Assembly (NCBI GenBank): GCA_900095095.1 | Contig: FMBT01000328.1 | Location: forward strand, 124,001-188,000 | DNA: 64,000 nt | Source: Fragilariopsis cylindrus CCMP1102 | Taxonomy: Eukaryota > Bacillariophyta > Bacillariophyceae > Bacillariales > Bacillariaceae | Direction of reading: 5' to 3' | Shown here: positions 3,235-58,966 of the stretch, in pieces | How positions within the stretch are numbered: the stretch's first letter is position 1 | Layout of the letters: the number at the start of each line of letters is the position of its first letter | Made by a program: the position numbers and the translations under genes | Notes under the pieces: model-generated | Databases searched by the model: none | The model's input: the letters and a program-made list of their open reading frames with translations, nothing else | What the model was told of the DNA's origin: nothing

Positions 3235-3592
3235 GTGCTTTATCTTCTAGTTGGCTTGTAATGAACGAAGAATTGTAATCGACTACGAGAATTTGTTTAT
3301 TTATATTCTATTATTTGTTGGCATCATACTTGTGAGCGAGGATAATTGTGTTTTGATCATAAGCAATTAGCGATCAAGCGATACAGTCGTACATGCAAGA
3401 GGTTAATTTGGGGAGGTGGAGTGCTTGGTTAATTAAAAAGGAGGGAGGTGTTTAAAACCCTAACCTTAATAATCCGAGACTAACACTCGTGACCGAAACA
3501 ACAGGATTGTTCGATGACGATCGAGTTTTTCTCATAAAAAGATACGATCAATCAACAACAACAACAACAACAATAACAACTTCACTGCTTCG
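3235..3592. promoter_or_regulatory. divergent intergenic promoter region
   Basis: These 358 bp separate the starts of the minus-strand M14-like gene and the plus-strand kinase/PP2C gene, so they should carry both promoters. A CAACAA run (about 3553-3572) lies just before the plus-strand ATG. No clear TATA box or operator was identified. Confidence 0.5.
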
Positions 3593-6381
3593 ATGCTAGT
3601 AACTAGATGGATAAATGACATCTGTAACAGACCAAGGGATTCAATGATGGTGGCGATATTTGCTTTGGGTTGGCTGTTGCTCACGCAATTCCCTACTGCT
3701 GAATCTTTTATATTGCCGAAAACAACATATCCGCCGCCTCCGACTGATACTATTTCTCACCTACAAAGAAGACGACAAACACTGCGAATTCGTACTGAGC
3801 TCTTTGCGGTAGAACAAAAGGACCATATATCAACAGAAAACGTATCAAACAAAGAAGCAAAAGAAAGTTTCGTAGCAGCAAAAGATGACCTTTCTATAGG
3901 GAAGAACATTGGATCTGGATCTTATGGTACGGTCCATTTACTTCAGTCTACAACAAAACAATCTACAAGTAATTTTGTCGGCAAACGTCCATGGCGATAC
4001 GAAGAATTATTGCTTAGAAAGCGGGAGAAGGCGCCGGCGGAGGAGGAAAACGTCGACGTTGTAGCAATGAAAGAACGTGCGGAACGTTGTATGTACTACT
4101 GGAGGGTTGAACAGCACTGCTTTACAAAGTTAGAACCCCATCCACAATTGCCACTCTTTCTGGGAACATCAACTACTAAAAAGATAAGGAAAATGATGGT
4201 AACGAATGGATGATGTTTGGATTTGTGGGAGAAATCCAACAAGAACCATCCGGAGATGATACAATGATAGAAACTCCAGTTCCTGCACCTACTATGCAAG
4301 ATCTGATGAAATTGGACATCAAAGAATCAACCCTCGCTAAGCACGAATTACGAAATATCGCTAAAGCATTAGGTACAGCATCATACGAGGAGACCTTAGA
4401 CACGATCTTACCATCTTTATTGGTCGTTTTACAACATGTCCATAAGAATAAAATTGTCCACAGAGACATTAAGCCTGCAAATCTATTGGTACATGATAAT
4501 AACCTATTATTAATGGATTTTGGTAGTGCCGCAGATCTAGAACCATCCTCGTCGTCATTGACACGTGGTAGTGGATTAATGAGTTCCCTCTTATCCTCAA
4601 AAAAACAGCGTGTGGGTCTCGAAAGTGGGAATCGCGTCGCTGTATCACCCGTTTATACGGCACCGGAAATTTTCATCGATATAAATGATGCACCGACTTC
4701 ATTCGATATCTTTTCGTCTGGACTTATTTTCTGTCAGCTTTTATTTGGTTATCTAGAGGACCGAGTCGATGCGGGATTTCGACAGCAACTCGTAGATGAT
4801 GCCGATTGCGATCTGAATTTATGGCTAAACAACTTATTATCATCGAAGTTACGTCCTGCAGGACTCGGCCAAGCCCTTGATTATTTAGTAGAACGACCTG
4901 GACTTTGGGATTTGTTAGCAGAGATGCTCTCAAAGGAACCAAGGAAGCGTCCGAGTGCCCGAAAGGCATTGCAGCGATGGCAGGATATACAATCTTATCG
5001 GGATGGAGAAAATGACGAGAATGAGAACATCAACGCTAACAATGACCATTCTTATTTCTCTCTTGTGGTCGAGGCATTAGAAACATGCGAAATTCCTTCC
5101 ATCAGTCGCCCGCTGCATTTTGTTGCGACTTTTTCGAGAGCGAGGTCACTTGGACTAGTTTTATCAGAAAAAGACGAAGAAGCAGATGATAGCGATAGCG
5201 ATAACGATAACGATAACGAAGAAAATCAGTTTCTATGGAAGGCAGCTACCAAAGATTCCTTCCCAGGAGAAGTGTTTGTCAAGGATATCGTGACTGACGG
5301 TCAGGCAGATGAGCTTGGTATCTTTGAGATAGGCGACCGATTATCTGGTATTGGAGAGCTTCCCTTCATTGATGGAGGATTCGAAAAGGCAGTTGGAATG
5401 TTACAGGATCAACCGAAGGCAACCAAGAATGTTCGACTACATTTCGATCGGACATCAGTCCGCTTCAATGAGGCTATAGACATGAAACCCCCTCAAGCTA
5501 GTATCCAAATAGCCGACCGTGGAGCCTGGTCTTCGAAGGGTCGGAGGAAAGCACAAGAGGATACCTTCATCTTACACGAGATTCATGATGCAACTGATCG
5601 ATCTGTATTGGTGGGTGGGGTTATGGATGGCCATGGTGGAACGAGTGCATCCCAAGTTGTATCAGAAGTCCTTCCAAGTTTGCTTTCTAATCAGCTTGTG
5701 ATTAAAGATAGATCGCGATCGGTCTGTGATGCGCTAGAAGACTCTTGGATTTATATCTGCAAAACTTACCAGCAAAATTGCCTGGACGATGGAGAATGCA
5801 TTGCGGACTATGATGCTATGGAAGGGATTCTCCAAGCCGACACGGGCAGCAAAGATCTGAAGGCCGGAACGACTTGCTCTCTGATGGCTTTAGACGAAAC
5901 CTCAAGTGAGTTGACTTTGTTAAACTGTGGAGATTCGCGGAGTCTTGTTGTTAGAGAGGACGGTAAGGTGAAGTTTGCTACACTAGATCATACGCCACAA
6001 TCTGAAGAAGAGCGATTATTACAGGGTATACAACAAGGCCTTGACTACTCGTTACCGAAATGTCGATTATCTCGCTGGTCACTCAAAGTAGGTGATTATG
6101 AATACGCAGTGGGCAGATCACTCGAGGGCGTCTTTGCGACTTCCAAGGGGATTGTTAGTGATCCAGACTTATCAACTTTGACAGTCCAAGCTGGTGAACT
6201 TTTGGTGAGCGCCACGGATGGCTTATGGAATGTCATGGATTCCAACGAGGTTGCAATGCATCTATACAAGATGCGAACAAAAAATGGAATGTCAGCCCAT
6301 GATGCTGCTAGTACACTTTGTTCAATGGCTATACGGAAAGGATCCTCAGACAATGTCAGTGCCGTTGTAGTATATTTGTAG
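3593..6381 (+). CDS. plastid-type protein kinase - PDZ-like - PP2C phosphatase fusion
   Basis: One gene of about 929 aa. The N terminus has a hydrophobic signal ending in a Phe-containing site (PTAESFILP), like diatom plastid presequences. A kinase domain follows: Gly loop IGSGSYGTV (about residue 105), VVAMK lysine, HRDIKPANLL (about 289), DFGSA, and YTAPEIF. A PDZ-like segment (about 555-622, with VFVKDIVTDGQADELG and IGDRLSGIG) precedes a full PP2C domain (about 639-929) with QEDTF, DGHGG, GDSR, SATDGLW and SSDN metal and core motifs. Kinase and phosphatase thus sit in one chain. The frame breaks in the run of five A's at 4178-4182; one missing base restores it and joins two halves of one kinase domain. 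It lies between the two M14 genes on the opposite strand. Substrate unknown. Confidence 0.85.
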
Positions 6382-51149: not shown

Positions 51150-51740
51150 TCAAGCTAAAATTTCATCTTGTTCAGATTTTCCCTTTCCTGCATCCTTGCC
51201 GCTGGATCCTCCTTTTCCTGATCCTTCCCCTTCAGATTTGCTTCCTCCTTTTCCTGATCCTTTCCCTTCAGGTTTGTTTCCTCCTTTTCCTTCAGATTTG
51301 CTTCCTCCTTTTCCTGATCCTTTCCCTTCTGATTTACTTCCTCCTTTTCCTGATGATTTCCCTTCAGATTTGCTTCCTCCTTTTCCTGATCCTTTCCCTT
51401 CAGATTTACTTCCTCCTTTTCCTGATCCTTTCTTTTCAGATTTGCTTCCTCCTTTTCCTGATCCTTTCCCTTCTGATTTCTTTCCTCCTTTTCCTGCTGA
51501 TTTGCTTCCTTTTTCCTTACCACATCCCTTACCCCCACATACTGTCGGAGAAAAGGTGGTCGGTGCTGATGTTTGTGCATAAGTTGGATCATATGAAGGA
51601 GTAATGCTTGGTGATGCTGTTGGTGATGCAGTTGGTGAAACACTTGTCGAACTTGAAGTAAAATTCCTACAAGATTTCCTGCAGACGGACGGACAAAAGG
51701 ATTTGACCGTGTATGATGAATTTGATATTAGCCCAAATGC
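51150..51740 (-). pseudogene. 5'-truncated Gly-Lys-Ser repeat protein, paralogue of the giant gene's N-terminal part
   Basis: The minus frame ends at a TGA (51152-51150). Reading upstream it has SFCPSVCRKSC (the end of a six-Cys module), a short SPTASPTASPS linker, CGGKGCGKEKGSKS, and then about nine copies of an 11- to 12-residue unit, GGSKSEGKGSGK, ending DAGKGKSEQDEILA. This is the same set of parts (Cys module, Pro/Ser linker, Gly-Lys tract) as the neighbouring giant gene. No start codon, signal or first half of the Cys module is present; the similarity stops at about 51740, where a copy of the adjacent EF-hand gene tail begins. It is best read as a truncated relic, though an unseen 5' exon is possible. 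Confidence 0.6.
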
Positions 51741-51775
51741 AACGAGATTATATATATATTTTTGAAACTAAAAAT
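51713..51775 (+). pseudogene. duplicated fragment of the EF-hand gene's 3' end
   Basis: ATGATGAATTTGATATT and GCCCAAATGCAACGAGAT, followed by TGAAACTAAAAA, repeat the last coding bases of the nucleotidase/EF-hand gene (50957-51017). The copy is in the same orientation about 756 bp downstream and lacks about five bases, so its frame is broken. It marks a duplication breakpoint against the truncated Gly-Lys-Ser gene. Confidence 0.8.
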
Positions 51776-51822: not shown

Positions 51823-54800
51823 TCAACGATTCTCCTTTCTCTGTAGTTGCAAATGCCAAGGAATTTCTTTTCCTCTGGATTTCCACCAGTTGCGTGCATA
51901 ATTTCTATTAGATGATTCACGTTGTTGATTTACTTTAGGATCAGTACTTGGTGGTTTACGGTTTCCATGGACATGGTTGTTCATATTAAATTTCGAGGTC
52001 GTACTATCAGTATTATACTTCTTCACCTCCACGACTGATGGTGGCACATCGACATCTACTACATTTACAACGTTATCATCCTTTTCACGACTTGGATTTA
52101 CTACAGGATCAGTACTTGAGGGTTTCTTGGAGTTCTTGCGCATTTTAGCTGCTTCGATTCTTGTGGTAGCATAATCCTCTTCCTTATCCTCTGCATCTTG
52201 CAGAAAATCCGCCAAATCTTTTCCGTGAAGTTTCTTCATCGTATGATCGTGGATTCCATTCAACATACAATGTACGGCGAATTGCAATTTACTGTAAGAT
52301 GGGAAGAAGTAAGCTAAGGCGGCATGTACAAGCAAGTGCAATCCTGGTTGTAATCGTACATAATTAGAGGGATCGTGAACCGACCCCCGCATACATAGAG
52401 GAACAAGATGATGCCATTCTGCATAGATATTGATATCATAGCAACCCTCCATGCAAACTCGCAATATAATTTTTGCCCACTTTTCATCGTCTCCTGTGGC
52501 GTCTAGTAGAACGGCTTTTGCAAAGCAATACCAATTTACTATAAAGCGGCCATCTATGGGTGACAAAGTAAAGAAATCGCGAACGTAGTTCTTCTCTCTG
52601 CAAATTGAGTCGCATGAATTATGACAAACATAAAGAGTAAGTTAATAAAGTGTTAAACATAGGAGGACAATTGGAGATGTTTGCGTTGGACGTACCGTTC
52701 TGAAGTCACCATGTCGACTAGGGTCTCTACACTGATTGGATCATATTTCTTTTTTTTAACTCGATATACACTATTGCTGACACTTGTCAGATAAGTTTTT
52801 CTTATGTTATTGTTGTTGCTGCCGACTTCAACTTCGTCGTCGTTGAAGTCGTCGTCGTCGTATTCTCCTTCAACATAGCCGTTGTAAACACTAGCAGCAT
52901 CAGCATCAGCAGCAGCATCAGCATCAGCAGCATCAGCAGTATCAGCAGCATCAGCAGCAACAGCAGCAGCAGCAGCTGCTGCAACAGTAACAAATCCAGC
53001 ATAAAATTCAGCAGCAGCAGCAATATTATCAGCAATCATATAACCATTGTCGTCGTATTCGTATTCTTCGTATTCGTTGTTGTCATCAATGACACATTCC
53101 GCTGACAAATTATCTTTGTCTGATAGGTGTTGACTATTCATTGCAATGCGAGGAAAAAGATCTGGTTGGTGTTGACTATTTATTGCGATGCAAGGAAAAG
53201 GAACCGAATCGGGTTGATGATTTCGACCGTAGTCCGTATTCTTTCTTTTTCTTGGAAACGTATGAATGATTTCATATTTAGAATGCTTTTTATTATCTGA
53301 CAGTAGTTTGAAGGTGATGGGGGTTCCGGTCGTACCACCGCAAAGTCTTCCTGATGCGATGCAAGGAAAAGGAACCGAATCGGGTTGAATGATTTCATAT
53401 TTAGAATGCTTTTTATTATCTGACAGTAGTTTGAAGGTGATGGGGGTTCCGGTCGTACCACCGCAAAGTCTTCCTGACAGAAACAAAGTTGAATGCGTCT
53501 GTATGTTATAATCAATCAGCCTCTTATTATCTGATAGTCGTTTGCCAGCAAAGATTATATACTGATTGTCCATCACATCACTACCAATCCTATCACCAAT
53601 CTGTTGTTTGAGCTTTGCTACAGTAGCATTTTTATCAACAACATAAGGGGTTTTATCTTGGTGAATAAATATGCATGCGGACTTCAATTCGTGTAGTTTG
53701 CTGGACCGCCATATATATGTAGAGTAAAAAAAACCTACAAAACATAACATCGCAAGTACAACCAGACCGGCAAACTGAAAAGAAAACGAATCATCAACAA
53801 TATTTGTATTTTCGGCAGCCACCCAATCGCAGTCCTTTTCGGAGTCGCCCTCAAATCGAAAGGAAGGATCGTCTTCGCAGCCTCCTCCCTCGTTGATAGG
53901 AAAGTCTGTGGGTGCTGTTGTAGGTGTAGGAGCAACTGTAGGAGCATGTAACGAAGGAGGACATGATGTAGGTAAAAATGTTGTAGGGGAAAATGTAGGA
54001 GCAACTGTATCTATAGAAGGTGCTACAGTAGGTGCTGCAGTAGGTGCCGCGGTAGGTGCTACAGTAGGTGATTCAGTAGGTGCTGCAGTTGGTGCTGCAG
54101 TTGGTGCTACAGTAGGTGCTACAGTAGGTGCTGCAGTAGGTGCCGCGGTAGGTGCTACAGTAGGTGCTGCGGTAGGTGCTGCAGTAGGTGCTGCAGTTGG
54201 TACTACAGTAGGTGCTGCAGTAGGTGCTGCAGTAGGTGCCGCGGTAGGTGCTACAGTAGGTAGTTCAGTAGGTGCTGCAGTAGGTGCCGCGGTAGGTGCT
54301 ACAGTAGGTGCTTCAGTAGGTGCTGCAGTTGGTGCTACAGTAGGTGCTGCAGTAGGTGCTGCAGTAGGTGCCGCGGTAGGTGCTACAGTAGGTGCTGCGG
54401 TAGGTGCTGCAGTAGGTGCTTCAGTAGGTGCTGCAGTTGGTGCTACAGTAGGTGCTGCAGTAGGTGCTGCAGTAGGTGCTACAGTAGGTGCTTCAGTAGG
54501 TGCTGCAGTTGGTGCTTCAGTAGGTGCTGCAGTAGGTGCTGCAGTAGGTGCCGCGGTAGGTGCTTCAGTAGGTGCTGCGGTAGGTGCTACAGTAGGTGCT
54601 TCAGTAGGTGCTGCGCTTGGAACTGAGCTTGGAATAGCGCTTGGATCAGAACTGGGCTCTGAGCTAGGGATAGAGCTGGGAGTACCACTTGGTAGAGAGC
54701 TTGGATCAAGACTGGGAACGGCACTTAGCTCAACACTCGGCTCAACACTTGGCTCAACACTTGGCTCAACACTTGGCTCAACACTTGGCTCAACACTTGG

Positions 54801-57800
54801 CTCAACACTTGGTGATCCACTTGGTGAACCACTTGGTGAACCACTTGGTGAACCACTTGGTGAACCACTTGGTGATCCACTTGGTGAACCACTTGGTGAT
54901 CCACTTGGTGAACCACTTGGAACAAAGCTTGGAATAGAACTGGGAGTAGAACTGGGAGTACCACTTGGTAGAGTGCTTGGATCAAAACTAGGAACAGAGC
55001 TAGGAACGGCACTTGGCTCAACACTTGGCCCAACACTTGGTGATCCGCTTGGACCAAGACTTGGAACAAAACTTGGAATAGAACTGGGCTCTGAGCTAGG
55101 GATAGAGCTAGGAGTACCACTTGGAAGACTGCTTGGGACAAAACTTGGTAGAGTGCTCGGATCAAGACTAGGAACAGAGCTAGGAACAGCACTTGGCTCA
55201 ACGCTTGGTGATCCACTAGGTGAGGCACTTGGACTTCCACTTGGACTTGCTGATGGCGAGGCACTTGGACCTCCACTTGGACTTGCTGAAGGAGAGGCAC
55301 TTGGACCTCCACTTGGGCTTGTTGATGGTGAGGCACTGGGGCCGCCACTTGGTTCACCACTAGGTGCAGAACTTGGACTAGAACTAGGGGAGGAACTTGG
55401 AGCACCACTTGGTCTGCGACTAGGGGATGCGCTTGGACTTCCACTTGGAGCCGAACTTGGACTTCCACTTGGTTCACCACTAGGTGGAGCACTTGGACTT
55501 CCACTTGGACTTGCTGATGGCGAGGCACTTGGACCACCACTTGGACTTGCTGATGGCGAGGCACTTGGACCTCCACTTGGACTTGCTGATGGTGAGGCAC
55601 TAGGACTTCCACTTGGACTTGCTGATGGGGTAGCACTGGGAATGCCACTTGGGCTTGCTGATGGGGCAGCACTTGGACCACCACTTGGACCTGCTGAAGG
55701 CGAGGCACTTGGACCACCACTTGGACTTGCTGATGGCGAGGCACTTGGACCTCCACTTGGACTTGCTGATGGTGAGGCACTAGGACTTCCACTCGGACTT
55801 GCTGATGGGGTAGCACTGGGAATGCCACTTGGGCTTGCTGATGGGGCAGCACTTGGACCACCACTTGGACTTGCTGAAGGCGAGGCACTTGGACCTCCGC
55901 TTGGACTTGCTGATGGCGAGGCACTTGGACTTCCACTTGGTCCACCACTTGGTGCAGAACTTGGACTCAAACTAGGAGAGGAACTTGGTGCAGAACTAGG
56001 AGAGGAACTTGGTGACTCACTAGGATTAGCACTAGGAGAGGCACTTGGAGCATGACTTAGTGTTGGTGTATCACTAGGAGCCGAACTAGGGAAAAATGAT
56101 CCACTGGGGGATTCACTAGGTGATCCACTCGGCGCTGAGCTTGGTGATGATGAAGGCTTGCTGCTTGGTGACTCAGAAGGACTGCTAGATGGTGAACCAC
56201 TAGGAGACTCACTTGGACCTCCACTTGGACTTGCTGAAGGCAAGGCACTTGGACCTCCACTTGGGCTTGCTGATGGTGAGGCACTAGGGCCGCCACTTGG
56301 ACTTGCTGATGGGGCAGCACTTGGACCACCACTTGGACTTGCTGACGGTGAGGCACTTGGACCGCCACTAGGTGATGCGCTTGGACTAGAACTTTGAGCT
56401 GAACTTGGACTTCCACTTGGTTCACCACTAGGTGGAGGACTTGGACCAACTGGTACACCAACTGGAGCCAAACTAGGGAGAAATGGTCCACTGGGTGCTT
56501 CCCTTGGTGATCCACTCGGCGCAGCGCTTGGGTTAAAACTTGGAACGGCTGATGACACATCACTTAGATCGCTGGATGGAATGTCGCTTGGAGTATTGCT
56601 ACGAATTAAATATGGAATGGCTGACGGGACTGTAGATGGAGAAATATTTGGATTCGTTCTCGGTTGGAGACTTGGCTTGGAACTTAGATCTCCGGATGAA
56701 TCCGTGCTAGGAATGGTAGCTGGAGCTCCACTCCGAATAGAACTTGGAATGATACTTGGAGTCACAGAAGGTATAGCGCTTGGTTCTCCTACAACGGTTG
56801 GTCTTGGTGTAGCTTCGGCATTTCCATCGAATACTGTAGGAGATACAGTTGTTGGAAAATCTGTAGGTGATAATGTGGGCTCCTTTGTGGGAGATTCCGT
56901 AGGTGATGCAGCTGTTGAAGAGTCCGTAGTTGATACAGATGTTGGAGACTCACTGGGAGAAAATGTCGTTTCTGCTGCTGTTGATATATCAGTAGGAGAG
57001 TCCGTAGGAGATGAAGTGATTGAAGAGTCAGTAGGAAATTCTGTAGGCGATACTGTTGTTGGAGATTTAGTAGAAGATTCTGTAGACGATGCTGTTGTTG
57101 GAGAATCCGTAGTCGGCGCTGAAGTCAGAGAAACTGTAGGATCGTTAGTCTTACATTCCTCTTTGCACACGAGAGGACAGAAAAATTGTACCTTATTTTC
57201 GGTTACTGGATCGACTTTATCACACCGTTTGTTAGGCTTCTTGGTCACCCAGCTTTCACAGTCTTTTCCTTTATCATTATCAAAACGGAAAGTATCACTG
57301 TTCTCGCAATCCTCACGGGAATTGTTTGATGTTGAGGTTGGTTCGTTTGTAAGAGTCGGCTGAGGCGTAGGTCGAGGAGTAGGCTTGGAAATTAAATTAC
57401 ATTCCTTTTTTCGTTCCTGAGAGGAAGAAGAAGAAATAGAATTAGAAGAAGAAGAAGATGTTCACAAAGGGAGGGAATGTAAAAATGAGATTGTTTCGTA
57501 CCGTTGATGAAGAGATAATCAATGTGGGTGCGGTGTGATGGCATTATTTATTTGCCGATGTATCTCGTTCTATCACGATAGAAAAAAACTTACCTCAATT
57601 TCTTTGTCTATTATTTCCTTGCGACAGTCACTGATACCACCACCCGATTTTCCCTTCCCTGATTTGCTAGATTTGCTACCCGACTTTCCATTAGAGCTCT
57701 TTCCGTGGTTAGGACACTCAAAAAATAGATCGAAACATTTGTGCACCTGTTAATAATATAGTCGATAGAGAGATATTTTATTTTATCTGTGAGTGGGACG

Positions 57801-58966
57801 GAAAGAGATTACGAATAAATAGAGCGATGGATGTACAATGAAATGATAGACAACGGTTCCTTGGTACGTTTTCGTACAACAAGGTAGTGTGATTTTACGT
57901 ACGTGATCGTTTCGGTCCTCTACTTCATTAAGATTCAATAACATACGTCGATCCTTCCCGCTCTTGCCCGTTCCGCTCTTTCCGTGAGTCTTGCCAGTTC
58001 CGTTCTTTCCCCTGTTCTTTCCTCCTTTTCTTTTCTTGGTCTTCTTTCCGTTCTTACCACCGCCACCGCCACCTGATTTGGATTTCTCGCTCTTCTCTTT
58101 ACCACCATTCTTGCTCTTTCCGCCGTAGTGACTACTGCTCTTGCCTTTACCAGCACCACCACCTGATTTCGATTTCTTGGACTTCTTCGCTGATTCCGCT
58201 CCCGATTTGTCGCCACTACCACCTTTGCTTTTCTCACTCTTATTCGATGACTTTGTTCCATCCTTTCCACTGTCACCCTTCCCGTTTCCCTTTCCACCAA
58301 TATCTTTGTTCGATTTGTTACTTTTACTCTTGCTACCGTTAACCTTTCCTTTCTTGTTACCCTTTCCTTTCCCACCTGGTAAACATTCTTTTGAGGGAGG
58401 TAGAGCAACATCGAGACACAGATATAGCTATATATAACATTAATAATGTACGTCATGGCGAAAAAAGAAGATGAAAATAATGATGAAATAGAAATAAAAA
58501 GTTAGAAAATAAAAGGATGAGTTTCGAAACGTATGTGTAAGATCTGAGGTAGCGAAGTGACGATGCATATTATTACCATTACTTTTTGGAATGGAATAAG
58601 ATACACGATTACTTCTTCACTTACCTTTGTATCGTAATCGTTTGCTTTCAAGAATCTAGTACGTGAGGTTTTCGACGTCATAGCAGCTTGAATATCATCA
58701 CTCTTAATATCATCGTCGTTGTCGTTATTAGCTTCCTTGATCGTAGACTGACTGAACTTTCTGTCGAGTCCTCCTCCTCCTCCTCGTAAAGAAATGAATG
58801 ATGGATCGTCGTTAACGCTAGTGGGAATCATCATGCCGGAAGTAGCACGAGGAGCAGAAGCACTACCACTGCTGACACTGATACTGAACAACGAAGCGAT
58901 CGCAACCAGTAGTAATAAAACAATCGATACACCCACATATGATTTGATCGAAACGGAAGACACCAT
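51823..58966 (-). CDS. giant Ser/Pro-stalk membrane protein with ubiquitin-like and HNH-nuclease-like domains
   Basis: Five exons: 58966-58625, 58427-57903, 57746-57594, 57416-52696, 52597-51823; 2171 aa, frame intact, all introns GT-AG. Order: hydrophobic signal (1-35); Gly-Lys-Ser-rich basic region (about 130-340); six-Cys module (Cys 377, 393, 405, 420, 424, 428); Pro-Thr and Pro-Ser repeat stalk (about 430-1510); half of a second Cys module ([19 protein letters not shown], about 1519); one membrane span (about 1555-1578); ubiquitin-like fold (about 1587-1659, with [20 protein letters not shown] and RLCGG); an internal repeat of the Gly-Gly tail plus a basic RKRKN cluster; an Ala/Asp-rich run; and an HNH-like domain (about 1955-2025) with [20 protein letters not shown] and LHLLVH. 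The last exon joins in frame (GAA CG|A GAG). Expected topology: stalk outside, ubiquitin-like and HNH parts inside. Function unknown. Confidence 0.8.
53185..53477. repeat. in-frame tandem duplication of the ubiquitin-like tail
   Basis: Segment 53185-53354 is repeated at 53356-53477. The right-hand copy lacks 48 bp. The shared 91-bp block (53264-53354 and 53387-53477) is identical, so the event is recent or converted. Each copy encodes [20 protein letters not shown]. The extra 48 bp in the left copy encodes the basic stretch TFPRKRKN. Confidence 0.92.
53890..56800 (-). repeat. Pro-Thr-Ala / Pro-Ser stalk repeat array within the giant gene
   Basis: In coding order: mixed Pro-Ser units, then long ASPSGGPS blocks (about 56400-55210), [12 protein letters not shown] and VEPSVEPS runs (about 55200-54610), then [15 protein letters not shown] runs (about 54610-53930). 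The unit is four residues, P-(S/T)-x-x, or 12 bp. Larger blocks such as 55500-55690 and 55690-55870 are near copies of each other. Such stalks are typical of heavily O-glycosylated cell-wall or surface proteins. Confidence 0.9.

Follow-up and report, generated by a model that had tools for sequence, protein, structure and literature searches.

Several described precursors carry a ubiquitin-like domain (UBL) that ends in Gly-Gly and stands before a partner protein, and these include Ub-L40, Ub-S27a, FUBI-eS30, Ub-SDE2 and Ub-NiSOD. According to PMC8354635, FUBI is 36% identical to ubiquitin, and FUBI-eS30 is cut by USP36, for which the diglycine is needed. According to Sibbald et al. 2019 (PMC6332867), the ubiquitin of algal fusions is amino-terminal, internal or carboxyl-terminal, Ub-NiSOD has a wide but patchy distribution that is nearly all among phototrophs, and Guillardia theta has a ubiquitin fusion with a 'Tryptophan-associated transmembrane protein'. 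In its main text, words starting with 'transpos' or 'nuclease' occur zero times ('endonuclease' lies outside that count). Here we analyse a gene of the diatom Fragilariopsis cylindrus CCMP1102, found on the minus strand of a 64,000-nucleotide stretch of contig FMBT01000328.1 (the window). The window is part of C99, where C-numbers denote contigs of this genome, which was searched as 67.9 Mb in 818 contigs. Its intron-bearing genes and Pro-Ser/Pro-Thr stalk proteins are in keeping with a diatom. We suggest that the gene may encode a membrane precursor with a cytosolic nuclease releasable by a deubiquitinase (DUB), and we give this reading a probability of about 40%.

The Ub and FUBI fusion precursors start with the UBL, whereas in the window gene the UBL is preceded by signal, stalk and membrane span, and its partner is an HNH domain behind a long spacer. 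We file this order of span, UBL-Gly-Gly and DNA enzyme as a variant of the ubiquitin-fusion precursors. Neither the parts nor the principle of fusing them is new; the order is, and it recurs with unrelated enzymes. The same genome carries fusions of ubiquitin to ribosomal L40 (L015:1357-1785, C117), to SDE2 with SPRY and SDE2 C-terminal domains (L012:1420-3120, C90), and, in a gene of two exons, to nickel superoxide dismutase (L013:1459-2223, C80). In the engineered baits of the split-ubiquitin membrane two-hybrid system, a membrane protein, a ubiquitin part and a DNA-acting protein follow one another, and the last is freed by DUBs. Those baits are engineered and split, whereas the window gene is natural and whole. 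Among the 18 titles listed by a literature search there was no natural protein with the order of membrane span, UBL-Gly-Gly and DNA enzyme, and we know of no natural protein in which a nuclease is stored at the membrane and freed by a ubiquitin-type cut.

The domain order and domain identities proposed in a first-pass annotation, made from the letters alone, stand. The UBL with its Gly-Gly end was borne out by Pfam PF00240 (51.6 bits against a curated cut-off of 25.4, E 8.2e-14), though its limits had to be moved from residues 1587-1659 to 1586-1660. In alignment with the genome's own ubiquitin, 33 of the 73 aligned residues are identical and the score is 98, where the best of 2000 shuffles reached 15. 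The profile built from three full UBL copies aligns with ubiquitin from the PDB up to its residue 76, the last Gly. The Gly-Gly pair lies at residues 1659-1660 with further protein after it, and the ubiquitin positions I44, K48, R72, L73, G75 and G76 are kept. FUBI-eS30 is an example of a UBL with only 36% identity to ubiquitin that a deubiquitinase can still cut (PMC8354635).

The piece made of the transmembrane (TM) span and the UBL is also found in transposase genes. It occurs complete at two more loci, C158 and C88 (over 3.9 kb, C88 has a 98% identical counterpart on C164), with DDE_Tnp_4-type transposases after the UBL (Pfam 4.2e-8 in C158 and 1.3e-10 in C88), and C158 passes the Pfam DDE_Tnp_4 cut-off when scanned as a protein. 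These genes have TM-UBL-Gly-Gly in common with the window gene, at about 83% DNA identity over 235-249 nt, and differ from it in their DDE transposase partner, their short ectodomain and the lack of a stalk. A 5'-truncated UBL-DDE copy without a span lies at C670; its DDE part is assigned through 81% identity to C158, and its last 73 UBL bases are 97% identical to the window. Gly-Gly is present in each of the four UBL copies that were read, namely those of the window, C158 and C88 and the truncated one of C670, and the DNA similarity of the window to C158, C88 and C670 ends at most one base from the Gly-Gly codons. Between C158 and C88, DNA identity is 79.5% in the UBL (83 codons) and 73% in the wider TM-UBL block (556 columns), against 56% in the DDE parts (168 codons; dS saturated). 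The cassette was thus either exchanged or kept more strictly than the DDE enzyme, and it stands ahead of one HNH protein and of two DDE lines that have diverged.

Among the 38 places matched by the C158 protein, 23 are further transposase-like places without a UBL listed in the UBL search. One of them, C648 (51% identical to C158), was read; its N-terminus is of another kind and lacks a span. The transposase genes at C158 (L023:4584-6350) and C88 (L024:6852-8578), which open with a signal-like stretch, a span and UBL-Gly-Gly, are unusual themselves, and their D-D-E residues appear intact by eye. An anchor-plus-tag piece before transposase genes may point to a device, used repeatedly, that tethers DNA enzymes and releases them. 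More tentatively, a portable cassette of TM and UBL-Gly-Gly before mobile-element nucleases (two diverged DDE lines and the HNH relative) might hold them at a membrane until a DUB frees them, as a natural counterpart of the membrane split-ubiquitin reporter.

The partner in the window gene is of a different kind. The homing-endonuclease family phrog_655 matches its last exon at E 5.6e-16, and tblastn with this exon gave 436 phage records at E<=0.01 (best E 8e-6; identity 26-37% among the 20 matches listed). Of the 69 candidate loci from viral contigs, 52 were confirmed by an alignment that included phage proteins. In an alignment of 36 rows, 2 from this genome and 34 viral, residues Y4, E60, H62, H63, P66, C68, N78, V80, L82, P84, H87, H91 and L94 are invariant throughout. 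The His-His, Asn and His positions of the HNH motif are all kept in the window copy (H62, H63, N78, H87, H91), so the earlier call of an HNH-like motif is upheld by both the phrog_655 match and this invariance. We class the last exon as a phage-type HNH homing-endonuclease domain. The window copy has no match to Pfam HNH (PF01844), at E<=1 or at 0.01, and none to NUMOD3; among the 36 aligned members, Pfam HNH matches 15 (E 0.01 or better) and NUMOD3 12. An AlphaFold model from two sequences was poor, whereas one with a deeper alignment (mean pLDDT 71.3, pTM 0.56) has a strand at 60-63, a strand at 79-82 and a helix at 84-97, at the HNH motif. The strand-strand-helix for which the structure was checked is present in the deeper model, but there is no significant fold match: Foldseek with the whole model gave none at E<=0.001, and the best Z for an HNH chain in a fold search was 2.8 among the matches listed. 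The window copy has the core motif, the invariant residues and, tentatively, the modelled strand-strand-helix in common with phage HNH homing endonucleases (phrog_655, with Pfam HNH and NUMOD3 among the relatives). It differs from them in that it belongs to a eukaryote gene with introns and follows membrane and UBL parts.

A phrog_655 search of the genome's contigs found C99, C374 and C307 only. C307 holds the one HNH paralog, which is 69-70% identical. For the whole HNH protein, window against C307, dN is 0.206 and dS 0.268, while the 45-aa core has dN 0.029 and dS 0.267; residues differ at 2 of 45 positions in the core and at 74 of 208 elsewhere (Fisher 8.7e-6), and the value is 0.0002 in a permutation test that allows for the choice of the best stretch of 45 residues. 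For the UBL, dN and dS are 0.108 and 0.685 between window and C158, and 0.148 and 0.326 between window and C88. By these measures, both the UBL and the HNH core are constrained since the paralogs split. On reading, neither a UBL nor a stalk is seen in the upstream exon of C307. The HNH part seems to work untethered there, because hydropathy over 19 residues stays below 1.5 throughout the two exons read (best 0.85 and 1.45). The paralog and a neighbouring secreted-protein-like frame (L020:2040-2747 and 4835-5518) have, by reading, a similar leader (YTLTKL..IQTQTHIQTI). A DDE_1 transposase-like frame of 1339 aa on C297 (L022:5868-9884) shares a 73-nt, 86% identical linker (13 aa) with the HNH protein tail.

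These parts can be arranged as follows. The composite gene should give a type I membrane protein with an N-terminal signal, one span and a cytosolic C-terminus. The hydropathy scan has its peaks at residues 11-29 and 1551-1569, with weaker ones over Ala-rich stretches at 1805-1831, and since basic residues follow the span, the UBL and the HNH domain are predicted to be cytosolic. The signal, the Gly-Lys region, the Cys module and the long stalk would lie outside, and the UBL ending in Gly-Gly, the spacer and the HNH domain of phage homing-endonuclease kind on the cytosolic side. We infer that the UBL would fold and be cut after Gly-Gly by a deubiquitinase, as in ubiquitin and FUBI fusions, and that the UBL would then stay at the membrane while the nuclease is freed to reach DNA. 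Three features lend support to the idea of release: TM-UBL-Gly-Gly recurs, the similarity in DNA breaks off at Gly-Gly, and the DNA enzymes that follow are unrelated to each other. Should the cassette function in the way implied by its layout, access of the nuclease to the genome would be controlled by membrane storage and a ubiquitin-type cut. Deubiquitinases would then have a direct part in controlling mobile-element enzymes, and there would be a natural membrane-release switch to study.

A serious rival, possible if not probable, is that the gene is a young rearrangement chimera without a working device, in which the TM-UBL was copied from a transposase gene, a piece of an HNH gene was inserted into a stalk gene, and decay of the open frame has simply yet to occur. 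The chain, judged from its sequence, is indeed a mosaic, in which blocks have clear-cut limits and short segments match a number of loci, and several observations weigh against a releasable nuclease. C670 holds, besides the truncated UBL-DDE copy, an inverted 158-nt piece of exon 2 (91% identical). The patchwork includes a perfect 92-nt repeat whose copies lie 123 nt apart, so that GRLCGG occurs twice in the chain, from residues 1655 and 1696, with a UBL before the first only. A second Cys module is apparently cut off, and pieces of the spacer resemble those of another gene. The HNH tail is little constrained outside the core (dN 0.207, dS 0.13), and the paralog comparison neither dates the fusion nor tells which copy is constrained. 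The border at Gly-Gly supports cleavage but does not prove it, since plain domain shuffling also gives borders at the ends of folded domains. The places listed by a six-frame DDE_Tnp_4 search were C88, C164 and three others, with C158 and C670 not among them. TM-UBL scans of viral and prokaryote contigs, with this one genome as the eukaryote scope, confirmed none. On the other side, a chimera without function is at odds with the 1602-aa frame around exon 4 and the open 2171-aa model, with the conserved last intron, and with the constraint on HNH core and UBL between paralogs, though this last may be owing to the partner copies.

A second alternative accepts the protein but not the cut: the UBL would act in the cytosol as a tag for docking or turnover, and the HNH domain would stay membrane-bound. 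UBLs adjoining a membrane span are known in proteins such as TMUB1 and HERP, which counts for this view, as do changes at ubiquitin positions that DUBs contact. Many DUBs use the hydrophobic patch and tail residues of ubiquitin (L8, I44, V70, L71-R74), and in the window UBL L8 is absent, V70 is replaced by S, L71 by G and R74 by C. Because part of the DUB-contact surface is changed in this way, recognition by a deubiquitinase is left uncertain. However, Gly-Gly is kept in every UBL copy read and the homology ends there, and a membrane-fixed nuclease has no evident DNA to cut. We consider an uncut UBL unlikely.

We think it highly probable that the UBL and the HNH domain belong to one chain. 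A splice scan was run with exon 1, the start of exon 2 (58427) and the last intron fixed, and with donors limited to GTA or GTG for exon 2 and GTAA for exon 3. It left 26 in-frame combinations. The combination of donors GTACGT and GTAAGT gives the exons of Table 1 and 2171 aa with one stop. The scan thus reproduces the five-exon chain without a frame break given in the first-pass annotation, which is one good choice among the open combinations and not the sole one; the last intron, placed there at 52598-52694, is corrected to 52598-52695 (98 nt). Since exon 4 lies within a single open frame (57461-52653), the stalk, TM and UBL are independent of any splice, whereas the HNH exon is joined to the UBL exon only via the last intron. 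Two separate genes, with stalk-UBL transcripts that end in the spacer and an HNH protein that starts inside exon 4, much as the C307 paralog starts within its own short upstream exon, are very unlikely, as the shared upstream exon end and the intron lie in the open frame of the UBL with no stop between. A second copy of the gene, on C374, differs over the 4.3 kb compared by one 12-nt in-frame stalk unit alone. This copy could stem from the other haplotype or from duplication in the assembly, and is therefore uninformative on selection.

Table 1. Positions in the window of the parts of the composite gene and of the DNA blocks it has in common with other loci.
Feature	Position	Strand	Basis
Exon 1, N-terminal hydrophobic signal/anchor (residues 11-29)	58625..58966	-	splice scan and hydropathy
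Exon 2, Gly-Lys-Ser-rich region	57903..58427	-	splice scan
Exon 3	57594..57746	-	splice scan
Exon 4: Cys module, stalk, TM, UBL and spacer in a single open frame	52696..57416	-	open reading frame and splice scan
Six-Cys module, residues 377-428	57153..57308	-	very large family in the genome
Pro-Ser / Pro-Thr stalk	53880..57140	-	Pfam PT 7.2e-63
Apparent first half of a second Cys module (17 aa), broken off before the TM	53829..53879	-	by reading
Transmembrane span, residues about 1551-1573	53718..53786	-	mean hydropathy 2.15 over 19 residues; basic residues follow
DNA block common to window and C158 (83%); with C88, 53456-53690 (83%)	53456..53704	-	DNA comparison
Ubiquitin-like domain ending RLCGG, residues 1586-1660	53457..53681	-	Pfam, PDB profile, ubiquitin alignment
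Second copy of the perfect repeat (first copy 53386-53477), with a second RLCGG without UBL	53263..53354	-	self comparison
Acidic/Ala/Asn spacer, partly similar to a low-complexity stretch of a C278 gene (weak RING match)	52805..53087	-	genome comparison
Last intron, 98 nt, donor GGTACGT and acceptor TTTGCAG kept in the C307 paralog	52598..52695	-	paralog comparison
DNA block common to window and C307 HNH paralog, last intron included	51840..52785	-	DNA comparison
Exon 5, HNH homing-endonuclease-like part	51823..52597	-	phrog_655, phage tblastn, 36-row alignment
HNH core, 45 aa (IYAEWHH ... PSY)	52294..52428	-	36-row alignment, AlphaFold model, core constraint test

The outer part of the protein has relatives across the genome. 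The six-Cys module family has at least 150 matching places (150 of the 218 candidates scored), several of them per gene. On C670 (L027), the inverted 158-nt piece of exon 2 (2387-2544) lies about 0.7 kb from the UBL-transposase copy (3246-4430). Directly downstream of exon 5, on the minus strand at window positions 51150-51767, there is an open frame with SPTASPT and Gly-Lys-Ser repeats, perhaps the C-terminal end of the original stalk gene, severed from the rest.

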